DNA of 32,088 nucleotides from an uncultured Roseibacillus sp. (GTDB lineage: Bacteria; Verrucomicrobiota; Verrucomicrobiia; Verrucomicrobiales; Akkermansiaceae), in the NCBI GenBank assembly GCA_937949965.1, contig CALFBF010000041.1, positions 1 to 32,088 on the forward strand, in the 5' to 3' direction. Below the pieces are notes generated by a model, which made no database searches, was not told where the DNA came from, and saw only the letters and a list, made by a program, of their open reading frames with translations. The position numbers were made by a program, and so were the translations under genes. Positions 20,102 through 32,088 of the stretch are shown here, piece after piece (the stretch's first letter is position 1; each line of letters begins with the position of its first letter).

Positions 20102-21193
20102 CTACTCTGCTAAAAAACTGCCAATCACGGCCATGGCTTCCACCTTGGCCGTTTTTTGATCTTCCGATTCGGCGAGGGAGAAGAGGGACATGAACATTGA
20201 TTGGCCATCGACCTTCTTCTGAAGAGAGAAAGGAGCATCGCTCGCCTCGACCGCGTTCCAAGTCGTCCGCACGGCCTTCCAGAAGTCCCCGGTCTTGGTC
20301 CAGTAGTCCTCGGCCTTAGCCAAGGAAGGAGTAGTGATGCGTTCATAACGCACCGCTCCTAACTCGGTCGCCAGTCTCTTCTGCACCCGGCCGTCGGTGA
20401 CGAGTAGTTTCTGATTAAGCTGCGAGTGAAGCCAACCGGTCGGAGTAACGGTGATTTCGTGCACTCCTCCGAGAACATTGTAGTCATCACGCACAGAGAA
20501 CTCACGGCGCGGAAGAGGTCGCCAAAAGTTTTGACTACGGAAAATAGAGAGACCTCCAAAGTGGGTCCATCGTCCCACGGTCTCGTAACGAGGAGAATCA
20601 TCGACCTGATAGACCGCTTGGGTCCAAGTTCCCTTCTGCTCGGGGAGCTCACGCTTGGCCCAATTGCGATCTCCTTGGAACTCGACCAGATTGCGGTCCT
20701 GAAACTTCCAATCCTGTCGCCAATGCTTCATCACGAAGGGATCGGAAACAGTGCCGTCTTCTTCAACAAATTCCATCACTAACACGTGTTGCAACGAAAT
20801 GAAGTCCGCTGACTCCTCAATCACAAAAGCGCGCTCGGTGGCCCAAGAAAAGTAAGGAGGACGCGGCTGATAGTTGTCGGCGCTGGAAGCAGTTTCGATG
20901 AAATCGAAACTGACACGATGGTCACCAGCAAGTGCCAAAATCGCGCGGCGATCTCGCTCTTTTTTATCCAATCCTGTCTCGTAGATAGCCTTGAACTCGG
21001 GCTTGGTCTCGGTTGCCAATTCCGTGCGGGAGGCCTTGGTGGTGCCACCGTAAGGCTTCATCGCTTCCCAACCCACAAAGGGCCATGAGAAAGGATGACC
21101 GATTCTTTCGGGGGTAGCTTCGGAGGCGGATTCCTCAGCGGCGACGAGCCAGGGAGTCGTCGCAAAGGTCAGTAAAAGGGCAACAGTCTTCAT
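20102..21193 (-). CDS. Exported DUF6607-like protein
   Basis: A 363-residue protein with signal peptide (MKTVALLLTFATTPWLVAA). The body carries a set of motifs I associate with DUF6607: ISLQHVLVMEFV, VMKHWRQDWKFQ, GTWTQAVYQVDDSPRYE, PLPRREFSVRDDYNVL and HEITVTPTGWLHSQLNQK. Function is unknown; the family is found in secreted or lipoprotein form in Bacteroidota and related marine bacteria. It is 70 bases downstream of the LolA-like gene on the same strand, which may indicate a joint envelope function. It converges with the TerC gene with 47 bases between the stops. Confidence 0.8.
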   Translation of the reverse strand: MKTVALLLTFATTPWLVAAEESASEATPERIGHPFSWPFVGWEAMKPYGGTTKASRTELATETKPEFKAIYETGLDKKERDRRAILALAGDHRVSFDFIETASSADNYQPRPPYFSWATERAFVIEESADFISLQHVLVMEFVEEDGTVSDPFVMKHWRQDWKFQDRNLVEFQGDRNWAKRELPEQKGTWTQAVYQVDDSPRYETVGRWTHFGGLSIFRSQNFWRPLPRREFSVRDDYNVLGGVHEITVTPTGWLHSQLNQKLLVTDGRVQKRLATELGAVRYERITTPSLAKAEDYWTKTGDFWKAVRTTWNAVEASDAPFSLQKKVDGQSMFMSLFSLAESEDQKTAKVEAMAVIGSFLAE

Positions 21194-26221: not shown

Positions 26222-27112
26222 CTAGCGAAGCTGAGAAGCGACTGCCTGATCCAAGGTAAAGGTGCCACTACCACTGCCGTTCACCTTCCCCCCCTCAGGC
26301 ACGAGATATTCAAAGACTGCAGGCACACGTACTCCTGGCTTTTGCGACATGAGGTAGACCCGAATAGCTAGGGGCTCCTTCCCCTCTGCTCCTGGGAGGC
26401 TCTTAACGGTATATTCCACCTGATTCACCCCAGGATTCGCGCCACCGATCACAACCTCGGCACGCTTGTTGTTAGCAATGGTGTGACGGCTACGACGGTT
26501 GACTTGCACCGTGACCTCACGACCAGGACAAAAGCAGTAAACCTTAGCAATATATGGGACGGGGCCCTTCAACTGAATGGCAGGAATCTGAGGTTGGCTC
26601 CCACTCGGAAGGAACTCAGCATCATCTAGGCTGGAGTAATCTCCTTTTGCCAATTGAGCGCGCACCTCAGGAAGGGCGATGAGATTAATAAACTCCGCCC
26701 CATCATACTTCCAGCCCTTCTCCTGCACAAAAGAGAGCACCAAAATGTTGTCTGTAGGAGTCCCTCCGACCCCAAAGTTGATCTTGCCAAAGTAAACGGC
26801 CTTCGCGGTCGAACCCCGCACCCGCAGGCGCGCGGGCGTCAATCCCCGTAAATCAGGCGGCGCGGCGGGAAGCTGAAAAACACTGGCTGGGAACGGAAGA
26901 CGCTCTGAAAAGATACGATTGCGAACCTCGACCTGGCGGCGAGCAGAAGTCGTCTGGCTCCAACGATGAGGATTCTTGGTAATCATCGCCTGTCGCCACT
27001 GATTATAGACGCCCTCCAGAACAGGTTGCATCTGACCTTGGCCAAAAAGAGAGGAAGAAGTCAGCGCGAAACCGAGCACAAAAAGCGTGGGAAACGGGGA
27101 AAGTGTCTTCAT
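26222..27112 (-). CDS. Exported protein of unknown function
   Basis: A 296-residue protein from the ATG at 27112; the frame is open to 27196 but MKTLSPFPTLFVLGFAL followed by TSSSLFG is a clear signal peptide. The first third has a helical region with NQWRQAMITKNPHRW, perhaps related to proteins that measure periplasmic substrates; the last third (IAKVYCFCPGREVTVQVN onward) is beta-rich. A CFC motif near residue 200 may bind metal or form a disulfide. No family is recognised. It is divergent from the esterase gene with 53 bases between starts and lies 57 bases upstream of the HtrA-like gene on the same strand, so co-transcription with the protease is possible. Confidence 0.7.
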   Translation of the reverse strand: MKTLSPFPTLFVLGFALTSSSLFGQGQMQPVLEGVYNQWRQAMITKNPHRWSQTTSARRQVEVRNRIFSERLPFPASVFQLPAAPPDLRGLTPARLRVRGSTAKAVYFGKINFGVGGTPTDNILVLSFVQEKGWKYDGAEFINLIALPEVRAQLAKGDYSSLDDAEFLPSGSQPQIPAIQLKGPVPYIAKVYCFCPGREVTVQVNRRSRHTIANNKRAEVVIGGANPGVNQVEYTVKSLPGAEGKEPLAIRVYLMSQKPGVRVPAVFEYLVPEGGKVNGSGSGTFTLDQAVASQLR

Positions 27113-27165
27113 GATGCGAGAAACTATCGACAAACCCCCGGCTCTGCGACCACCTTTTTCTTTAT

Positions 27166-28020
27166 ATGTCGTCTTTGCCGCAACTGACAGAAGCACCGGC
27201 CATCGGAGAGGCTCGCGACCGCGAGCTCCTCAAGGACGCGCACTCGTATGTCTATTACGAATCCCCCCAAGGTCCGCTCTCGGCGCACTTCTTTCTCCCC
27301 CCCGGACATAATCCCGAAGCCGCGCACCTGAATTGCATCCTCTTTCTCCACGGCGGGCTCTGGGATGCCTCCATGCCCACTCAGTTCGTCCCGCAATGTC
27401 ATCACTTTGTCTCCCGTGGTTGCATGGCGGTCACGGTGGAGTATCGCGTCTTTAACAAACACCGTACCAATCCCATGGAGGCGATCGAGGACGTGCGGAT
27501 GGCAATCGGTTTTTTAAAACAGAACGCCCAACTCATTGGAGTCGATCCCGAGCGCATCATCGTTGTCGGTGCTGGTTCTGGTGGTCACTTAGCACTCTCT
27601 TCTGCTGTACTCAGTCACACTGAGAATGCACAAGGGCTCGACCTCAAGCCCGCCGCAGTAGCCGCCTATTCAGCCATCGTAGATACTTCACCCAAGGGTG
27701 TCGGACATGATCGCTTCCCTTCTCCTAAGGAAGCGAAGCTCCACAGCCCACTCAATCAGCTCCCCAGCAAAGGCCTCCCGCCCTGCCTTCTTTTACACGG
27801 TTGCAATGACCGGGTGGCCCCTTACGAACAAGCTGTTAAATTCGCCAAAAACTACAAACGAAAAGGAAATCAGTGCGAGTTGGTCGACTTTGAAGGAGCG
27901 GGCCACACCTTCTTCAACTACAACACCAACGAACAGCTCTACAATCTCTCTCTCAATGCCCTTGATCGCTTTTTAGTGGACCTCAATTTCCTCTCCCCGG
28001 AAGAACCACTCGTGTTTTAG
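27166..28020 (+). CDS. Alpha/beta hydrolase, carboxylesterase/acetyl-esterase-like
   Basis: A 284-residue cytoplasmic hydrolase of the esterase/prolyl-oligopeptidase-like type. It shows the oxyanion motif HGG (62-64), nucleophile S138 in VGAGSGGH, acid D215 in HGCNDRVAPYEQ and base H247 in GAGHTFF. The segment VEYRVFNKHRTNPMEAIEDV is typical of the BD-FAE/acetyl-esterase group, in which a Glu/Asp-containing helix follows the YR. No signal peptide is seen. Natural substrate unknown. It is convergent with smpB; the stops are about 20 bases apart with a 6-bp inverted repeat TTAGGA/TCCTAA (28017-28038) between them. Confidence 0.88.
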   Translation: MSSLPQLTEAPAIGEARDRELLKDAHSYVYYESPQGPLSAHFFLPPGHNPEAAHLNCILFLHGGLWDASMPTQFVPQCHHFVSRGCMAVTVEYRVFNKHRTNPMEAIEDVRMAIGFLKQNAQLIGVDPERIIVVGAGSGGHLALSSAVLSHTENAQGLDLKPAAVAAYSAIVDTSPKGVGHDRFPSPKEAKLHSPLNQLPSKGLPPCLLLHGCNDRVAPYEQAVKFAKNYKRKGNQCELVDFEGAGHTFFNYNTNEQLYNLSLNALDRFLVDLNFLSPEEPLVF

Positions 28021-30079: not shown

Positions 30080-31372
30080 ATGAATCTATCTGCCCTCCCC
30101 TCCGTGGAAAAACTCGCACAGCAACTCGTCAAGGAGTCGCAACTGCCCAAATCACTCGTGACCGGGTTCATCAAACGCCAAGTGGGCAGCTATCGTGAGA
30201 GGCTGATGGGCGGCGAGGAACTGACTCGCGAGGACATCACTGCCGAGATTACTACCTCCCTCGATACCTTCGAAAGTTCACGTTTGCAACCCGTCCTCAA
30301 TGGCACAGGTATTCTCATTCACACCAATCTCGGGCGCTCCCCTCTGGGCCACCGCGCGGCTCAGGCAGTCTACGATGTTGCGACAAACTACTGTAATCTC
30401 GAAATCGACCTCACGACAGGAAAACGAGGCAAACGTGGCGGTTTTCTTGAAGAATCTCTCGCCATCCTAGTTGAAGCCGAAGCTGCGACTGTGGTGAACA
30501 ACTGTGCCGCTTCGCTCGTACTCACTCTGCGCGCGCTCATTGCGGAAGGAAAGAATGAGGTCATCGTTTCGCGGGGCGAACTCGTTGAGATTGGTGGCGG
30601 CTTCCGTATTCCCGATATTCTCGAAACCTCTGGTGCGAAGCTTGTCGAAGTTGGAGCTACTAATAAGACTCATCTCCACGATTACGAAAAAGCGATCACT
30701 GAACGAACTGCGCTCATCCTCAAAGTCCATCGTTCGAACTTTTATCTCGGCGGTTTCACGGGAGAACCCGAGTTAGAGAACCTCTTCCAACTCGCGAAAG
30801 ACCACGACATTCCTCTCGTGGAAGATCTCGGTTCGGGAGCGCTCATGCACACCGATCATCTCGCCCCTATCGAACACGAACCTCGACCACAAGAACAGCT
30901 TGGACGCGGGATTGAGCTCGTCCTTTTCTCCGGTGACAAACTCCTGGGAGGTCCTCAGGCCGGCATCATCGCAGGGCGGAAAGACTTGGTCGAAAAGATT
31001 AAAAAAGAACCCTTCTATCGCGCTGTGCGACCTGACAAACTGATTCTAACAGCTCTCCAAGAAGTAGTGGTCGATTACCTCACCCTCAAAGATAACCCCG
31101 AGCGACTCGACCTCGTGCCCGTGCTCGAAATGCTCAATCAAACTCCCGAAGACCTCCAAGAAAAAGCTCAAGCTCTGCAGGAGAAAATTTCAGACGAAAG
31201 CCAGATTGTTCCCACTACAGGAGCCACTGGTGGCGGGACAATGCCTCAGGCGCAATTCCCTTCCATCGCGGTGCAAACGGCAAAAAAACCAGAACTGCCG
31301 CATCTCTTTACCCGAGTCGAGGATGATAAGCATCACACCGATCCTCGCACTCTGCGTAACCTTCCCGAGTAA
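30080..31372 (+). CDS. selA: L-seryl-tRNA(Sec) selenium transferase
   Basis: SelA is a PLP enzyme that turns seryl-tRNA(Sec) into selenocysteyl-tRNA(Sec) using selenophosphate. The 430-residue protein shows the family core: PVLNGTGILIHTNLGRSPL (71-89), VNNCAASLVLTL (139-150), VSRGELVEIGGGFRIPDI (163-180), KVHRSNFYLGGFTG (215-228), VEDLGSGAL and the PLP-lysine motif FSGDKLLGGPQAG with K287. It is about 30 residues shorter than E. coli SelA; the end VEDDKHHTDPRTLRNLPE lacks the usual hydrophobic strand after the EDD motif. Its presence means the organism makes selenocysteine, and the next gene, 81 bases on, contains an in-frame TGA. selB, selC and selD are not in the window. Confidence 0.95.
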   Translation: MNLSALPSVEKLAQQLVKESQLPKSLVTGFIKRQVGSYRERLMGGEELTREDITAEITTSLDTFESSRLQPVLNGTGILIHTNLGRSPLGHRAAQAVYDVATNYCNLEIDLTTGKRGKRGGFLEESLAILVEAEAATVVNNCAASLVLTLRALIAEGKNEVIVSRGELVEIGGGFRIPDILETSGAKLVEVGATNKTHLHDYEKAITERTALILKVHRSNFYLGGFTGEPELENLFQLAKDHDIPLVEDLGSGALMHTDHLAPIEHEPRPQEQLGRGIELVLFSGDKLLGGPQAGIIAGRKDLVEKIKKEPFYRAVRPDKLILTALQEVVVDYLTLKDNPERLDLVPVLEMLNQTPEDLQEKAQALQEKISDESQIVPTTGATGGGTMPQAQFPSIAVQTAKKPELPHLFTRVEDDKHHTDPRTLRNLPE

Positions 31373-31453
31373 ACCTCATCTTTTTCCTTAAAACTAATCC
31401 AAGTCGCGAAATTTTATCGGAATAAAACAAGTCTATCATCTCTCTCAATCGCG

Positions 31454-32088
31454 ATGAAACTTCTTTTCTCCCTGCTATTCCTCTCACTGATGGCGTGCAG
31501 CTCCCAAGAAAAACAGGCCCCTGAACTGGGTCAGGTGAAATGGCAAACTGACCACGACAAGGCGCTCGCCCTCTCTGCCGAAACAGGCAAACCCGTCTTC
31601 TTGCTCTTCCAAGAAGTCCCCGGATGAGGACCGTGCAAAGACTTCGGGTCCGAAGTCCTCAGCCATCCCCTCCTTGTCGAAGCGATTGAGACTGATTTCA
31701 TCCCTCTCCTCATCCGCAATAACAAACCTGGACGCGAAGCAGCTCTCCTCAAGAAATACAAAGAGCCTTCTTGGAACTTCCCCGTCGTTCGTTTCGTCGA
31801 CGGCAAAGGCACTGACATCGTGCCTCGCCGCGATCAGCAGTTCCACATTTCACAGCTCTTGCCTCGTATCAAAAGCGCGCTTGCGAAAACCAAACGTGAA
31901 TCCGAGATTGTCCCTCTCATCGAACCAGAAACGGTGAGAACCTCGAAAATCGCTCTCTCACAGCACTGCTTCTGGACCGGAGAACTCGCAATTGGCAGTG
32001 TTCCAGGTGTTATCAAAACAGAAGCAGGTTGGTTAGATGGCCGCGAAGTGACTCTTGCTCACTTCGATCCCAAGCAAGTGACTGCCGA
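31454..32088 (+). CDS. Selenoprotein: lipid-anchored thioredoxin (UGPC) fused to MsrA-like domain, cut by window end
   Basis: Translation from ATG 31454 gives a lipoprotein signal peptide (lipobox LMAC, lipidated C15), then a thioredoxin-like domain. Codon 58 is TGA (31625-31627) within VPG-TGA-GPCKDF, so read as selenocysteine the redox motif is U58-G-P-C61, the counterpart of CGPC. The fold continues with SEVLSHPLLVEAIE and a cis-Pro candidate P110 (NFPVVRF). From about residue 165 an MsrA-like domain starts: HCFWTGE with C172, then GVIKTEAGW and EVTLAHFDP. The frame stays open for 211 codons to the edge. A SECIS-type hairpin follows the TGA, and selA is immediately upstream. From memory it resembles a family NCBI calls VPGUxxT thioredoxin-like (seleno)proteins, but with Cys at the last position. 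Probable role: periplasmic repair or sensing of oxidised protein. A plain nonsense mutation is the alternative. Confidence 0.88.
31625..31661 (+). promoter_or_regulatory. Bacterial SECIS element
   Basis: Beginning at the in-frame TGA, GACTTCG (31640-31646) pairs perfectly with CGAAGTC (31651-31657) around the tetraloop GGTC (31647-31650). Below it TGAG (31625-31628) can pair with CTCA (31658-31661), leaving an 11-base bulge on the left. The apical loop starts 19 bases after the TGA and contains GGU, as in the E. coli fdhF SECIS; both features are what SelB needs to bind and to deliver Sec-tRNA. The hairpin is inside the coding sequence (codons 58-70), as usual in bacteria. Confidence 0.85.

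Follow-up and report, generated by a model that had tools for sequence, protein, structure and literature searches.

A predicted SECIS element in a VPGUxxT-family thioredoxin-like gene of an uncultured Roseibacillus, compared across 73 homologues

Bacterial SECIS elements and the window hairpin

In the published consensus model, a bacterial SECIS element has an apical loop of 3–9 nt on an upper stem of 4–16 bp, a G within the first two loop positions followed mostly by G or U, a distance of 16–37 nt between the Sec-UGA and the apical loop, and a minimum free energy (MFE) of −7.5 kcal/mol or lower (PMC13188914). The fdhF element of E. coli, whose reference sequence is matched exactly in E. coli genomes, lies inside the coding region and presents the loop GGUCUG 18 nt after its UGA. 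The protein family of the locus described here is also on record. NCBIfam NF041383, ‘VPGUxxT family thioredoxin-like (seleno)protein, type 2’, is filed as a (seleno)protein, and the same family stands in the 2026 prokaryotic selenoprotein catalogue as ‘hypothetical protein OS_HP5’, first taken from the Olavius algarvensis delta-1 symbiont in a 2007 study (PMC13188914).

The window is the whole 32,088-nt stretch analyzed here, contig CALFBF010000041.1 from an uncultured Roseibacillus sp. (GenBank assembly GCA_937949965.1). The features discussed below are:

30080–31372, + strand: selA, selenocysteine synthase acting on tRNA-Sec (PF03841, E 3.9e-114), directly upstream of the selenoprotein gene
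31454–32088, + strand: predicted selenoprotein gene, partial, for a putative lipoprotein with a thioredoxin and then an MsrA-like domain, NF041383 family (TGA=U translation, domain matches, homologue readthrough)
31625–31627, + strand: in-frame TGA, first residue of UGPC in VPGUGPC; TGA in 33 and Cys in 40 homologues
31640–31657, + strand: predicted SECIS apical hairpin, 7-bp stem and GGUC loop (sequence, folding, covariation)
31647–31650, + strand: apical loop GGUC, the expected SelB contact; (A)GGU in 31/33 TGA genes and 0/40 Cys genes
31625–31661, + strand: proposed lower stem TGAG/CTCA, in the window sequence, its pairing not conserved by relatives

The minus strand of the window also holds a 324-aa ORF without a Pfam match at 1e-5 (26222–27196) and a 363-aa DUF6607 protein (20102–21193).

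The arms GACTTCG (31640–31646) and CGAAGTC (31651–31657) close the loop GGTC 19 nt after the TGA and encode DFGSEV in the gene frame, exactly as the original prediction had read them. With a 4-nt loop, a 7-bp stem, GGUC at the apex, a UGA-to-loop distance of 19 nt and an energy of −8.3 kcal/mol for the 18-nt hairpin folded alone, the structure lies within all four published constraints on bacterial SECIS elements (PMC13188914), and its predicted spacing in the accepted range is borne out. The predicted likeness to fdhF also holds, as GGUC opens the apical loop and the element sits inside the coding region in both cases. By contrast, the fdhF stem is bulged, whereas the window stem is uninterrupted, differs in sequence and belongs to another gene family. 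Several relatives with 5-bp uninterrupted stems have hairpins that are weaker in energy.

The apical hairpin dominates in wider folding contexts, with pair probabilities of 0.78–0.97; when the fold is restricted to 31625–31665, a TGAGGAC/GTCCTCA pairing outcompetes it. A lower stem that includes the TGA itself had also been proposed, and its arms (TGAG, 31625–31628; CTCA, 31658–31661) are indeed present in the window, but we reject it as a conserved element, with 66% of its cells paired and no compensatory change.

Taken by itself, the window sequence could be read as a premature stop in a decaying pseudogene, followed by a hairpin that is a chance product of the DFGSEV codons. Loosely SECIS-like hairpins follow 47 of the 1209 TGAs on the two strands of the window (3.9%), and under synonymous-codon shuffling of the window gene the hairpin energy alone is ordinary (p = 0.36). 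The original prediction was that such a structure would not be expected after a random stop. A GGT-starting loop at comparable energy follows three of the 1209 TGAs, the one at 31625 included, and the remaining two have loops 6–9 nt long at 33–35 nt. Folding 111 nt around the TGA gave no excess stability (z −0.26), but the signal is local, so the folding energy of the whole region is uninformative; an Rfam scan of 31400–32088 returned chance matches only. Because of these chance hairpins and the shuffling result, the single sequence is only suggestive, and in our comparisons it is the homologues that decide SECIS identity. They refute the pseudogene explanation, to which we give very little credence: 33 genomes have TGA at the same catalytic position with the frame open beyond it, Cys stands there mostly where genomes are without Sec machinery, and the stem shows compensatory changes.

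Selenocysteine and cysteine among the homologues

Searches among relatives, the order and the phylum yielded 73 readable homologues, with Roseibacillus persicicus (Verrucomicrobiales; 67% identity) as the closest named relative. The site is TGA in 33 of them and TGC or TGT (Cys) in 40. selB or tRNA-Sec was found in 32/33 TGA genomes versus 4/40 Cys genomes (Fisher 3.6e-15, kinship-uncorrected); the lone TGA genome with neither (G685) is an 88% complete assembly. Moreover, the best local hairpin carries an (A)GGU loop in 31 TGA genes versus none of the Cys genes (Fisher 1.4e-18, likewise uncorrected for kinship). The original prediction had named TGA homologues without a hairpin or loop G/U as the observation that would count against it, and this outcome did not appear. 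In two TGA genes the best uninterrupted hairpin lacks (A)GGU, although L037 aligns with GGGC at the loop position and L097 contains GTTC-GGTC-GAAC.

Synonymous shuffling, gene by gene, gave p < 0.05 in 10/33 TGA and 1/40 Cys genes, and is thus informative only for the set. The best tree requires 10 Sec/Cys changes, and none of the testable contrasts runs opposite to expectation. Kinship-corrected sign tests did not reach significance, which is out of reach here because well-supported branches carry only two Sec/Cys contrasts.

An alignment of homologues had been suggested as a check on the hairpin, and it reveals both compensatory stem changes and a conserved GGU. Among the 17 genes in the 19-nt register (UGA-to-loop distance), 91% of the stem cells are paired and three pairs are altered on both sides; none of 500 shuffles and none of the slid-register controls reaches the covariation score. 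The clearest case is the second pair from the loop. Genes with TTC (Phe) have GAA there on the other arm (Glu; in one gene GGA), and those with TTT (Phe) have AAA or AAG (Lys), so that a silent third-base change in the Phe codon accompanies a Glu/Lys replacement two codons on. The sixth pair from the loop is A-U in 8 genes and U-U in 9, which often leaves the stem with five pairs and a mismatch. The 18-nt register (10 genes) shows its fifth pair in three versions, A-T, G-C and C-G.

These data bear on two further explanations. First, the hairpin might be kept solely through conservation of the peptide FG[SQR]EV, in line with an FG dipeptide common to TGA and Cys homologues. Cys homologues with the same or a similar peptide are nevertheless without the hairpin, and the synonymous Phe wobble change travels with the Glu/Lys replacement; an equally paired stem with a GGU loop occurs in 0/40 Cys homologues, which refutes this explanation and leaves it with a minimal probability. 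Second, downstream hairpins can also promote generic readthrough, and the TGA could be read by another route, such as near-cognate suppression with Trp or Cys, with the hairpin as a general stimulator only. We consider this highly improbable, as the site is Cys or TGA and never Trp in all homologues read, the trait tracks selB and tRNA-Sec, and the loop is not that of just any stable hairpin but of the (A)GGU type that SelB would be expected to bind.

Several Cys homologues come from genomes with Sec-decoding genes. One of them (L069, TGC, in the Sec-decoding genome G606) has TTCG-GTTC-CGAA at the 19-nt position, which may be what is left of a SECIS following a Sec-to-Cys exchange; the same genome has two tRNA-Sec matches on a single contig (C328). 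Three others (L029 in G137, L057 in G193 and L100 in G560) have Cys despite selB, and two of these genomes have tRNA-Sec as well.

Sec-decoding machinery and the encoded protein

The neighboring selA is present in all three genus members with the selenoprotein gene, two other species among them, and did not turn up in the sequence flanking the remaining homologues. Elsewhere in the source genome are a tRNA-Sec outside the selenoprotein locus (63.9 bits; ARAGORN anticodon tca) and selB (340.9 bits). No selD over the cut-off was found in this 90.6% complete assembly (G000), most likely reflecting a gap in it; selD passes the cut-off in the two genus relatives and, apart from the incomplete G606, in every other Sec-decoding relative searched. 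Of the genes expected in a Sec-decoding genome (SelA, SelB, tRNA-Sec and SelD), the first three are present here and selD in both genus relatives; the first three, together with the distribution of (A)GGU loops, support the original identification of the hairpin as a SECIS element. In most Sec-decoding relatives searched selD itself carries a TGA. The SelD proteins L110–L119 of Sec-decoding relatives are selenoproteins (SC[GA]GUASKL), and the ten SelD loci examined by eye have an (A/G)GU-type hairpin ~31–32 nt after the TGA.

The window gene opens at 31454 with a putative lipoprotein signal (MKLLFSLLFLSLMACSS...), and its frame is still open at the contig end, 32088; gene callers that take TGA only as a stop would cut the protein off at residue 57. 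Translated with TGA as U, the protein matches Thioredoxin_7 and PMSR, the latter at E 0.0033 with only the start of the MsrA-like domain in the window copy. Against NF041383 it scores 264.5 bits versus a cut-off of 275 and ends at profile position 192/287, falling short because the contig end truncates the gene; the full-length Roseibacillus persicicus orthologue scores 325.7 bits. As in NF041383, the sequence family, the VPGU motif and a single Sec are shared, and the VPG(U/C) motif lies in a thioredoxin fold (VPGUGPC in the window protein). In the NF041383 name, however, the fourth motif position is Thr, where the relatives here have Cys (UxxC).

We predicted a structure for L010 (pLDDT 88.7), the orthologue in the genus relative whose genome matches R. 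persicicus. Residues 28–150 form a thioredoxin fold (3f9u, Z 14.7; DsbH 2ju5, Z 13.6), and residues 163–291 form an MsrA-like one (4lwj, Z 14.2, rmsd 2.0 over 127). The latter is the fold of MsrA (PF01625), including the selenoprotein MsrA of Clostridium oremlandii (4lwj), and the relatives combine it with a CFW motif whose Cys aligns with residue 16 of 4lwj. The residue at this site is Cys here, not Sec. In the profile alignment to 2j89, the active-site loop that follows GY.GG in MsrA is short of ~12 residues, which are absent between the two aligned pieces. This is the loop to which we assign the catalytic Glu of MsrA (from general knowledge and the title of entry 4lwl), and the gap makes methionine sulfoxide reductase activity doubtful; despite its Cys-Phe-Trp motif, the MsrA-like part may not be a working enzyme of this kind. 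Loci L030–L038 are single-domain Sec thioredoxins (~150–175 aa) without the MsrA-like domain, and the fused form occurs in other genera.

At the level of sequence, what we see is the hairpin, its covariation, Sec/Cys exchange, the Sec-decoding genes and two domain folds. We infer from them, with a probability of about 97%, that the hairpin is a bacterial SECIS element directing Sec at UGA 31625 in a thioredoxin-like redox protein. A ribosome arriving at this UGA would meet SelB, which, with GTP and Sec-tRNA(Sec), would bind the hairpin with the GGUC loop, 19 nt further along the coding sequence, and deliver selenocysteine, allowing the chain to continue. The product would be exported and probably lipid-anchored, a reductase of thioredoxin fold whose active site is Sec-x-x-Cys; the MsrA-like domain fused to it retains Cys-Phe-Trp.

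SECIS position within the family

By the best-hairpin criterion, which left two TGA genes unscored, the UGA-to-loop distance is 19 nt for 16 genes, 18 nt for 9, 25 nt for 5 and 22 nt for a single gene. Different codons supply the GGU: GGG-TCC (Gly-Ser) in the 19-nt form, GGT-CAA/CGA and similar (Gly-Gln/Arg) in the 18-nt form, and GAG-GTC or CAG-GTG (Glu/Gln-Val) in the 25-nt form. The tree requires at least four register changes, and Cys homologues are interspersed on the best tree. We lean toward the view that the SECIS hairpin was relocated within one family, so that distinct codons give rise to one and the same (A)GGU loop at 18, 19, 22 or 25 nt, depending on the lineage. If so, either Cys and Sec were interconverted repeatedly, with independently built SECIS elements, or one element slid stepwise. 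That bacterial SECIS elements are plastic and easily acquired de novo has already been noted (PMC13188914); movement within one gene family is the less ordinary point, and worth following.

More broadly, as judged from the comparisons above, the window gene is one additional case in a known selenoprotein family, and the predicted mechanism is ordinary SelB-dependent Sec insertion. For the Verrucomicrobiales, sequence comparison supports both Sec decoding and the Sec-thioredoxin/MsrA-like fusion, and the ~70 related genes let Sec/Cys exchange and SECIS repositioning be traced within one coding region.
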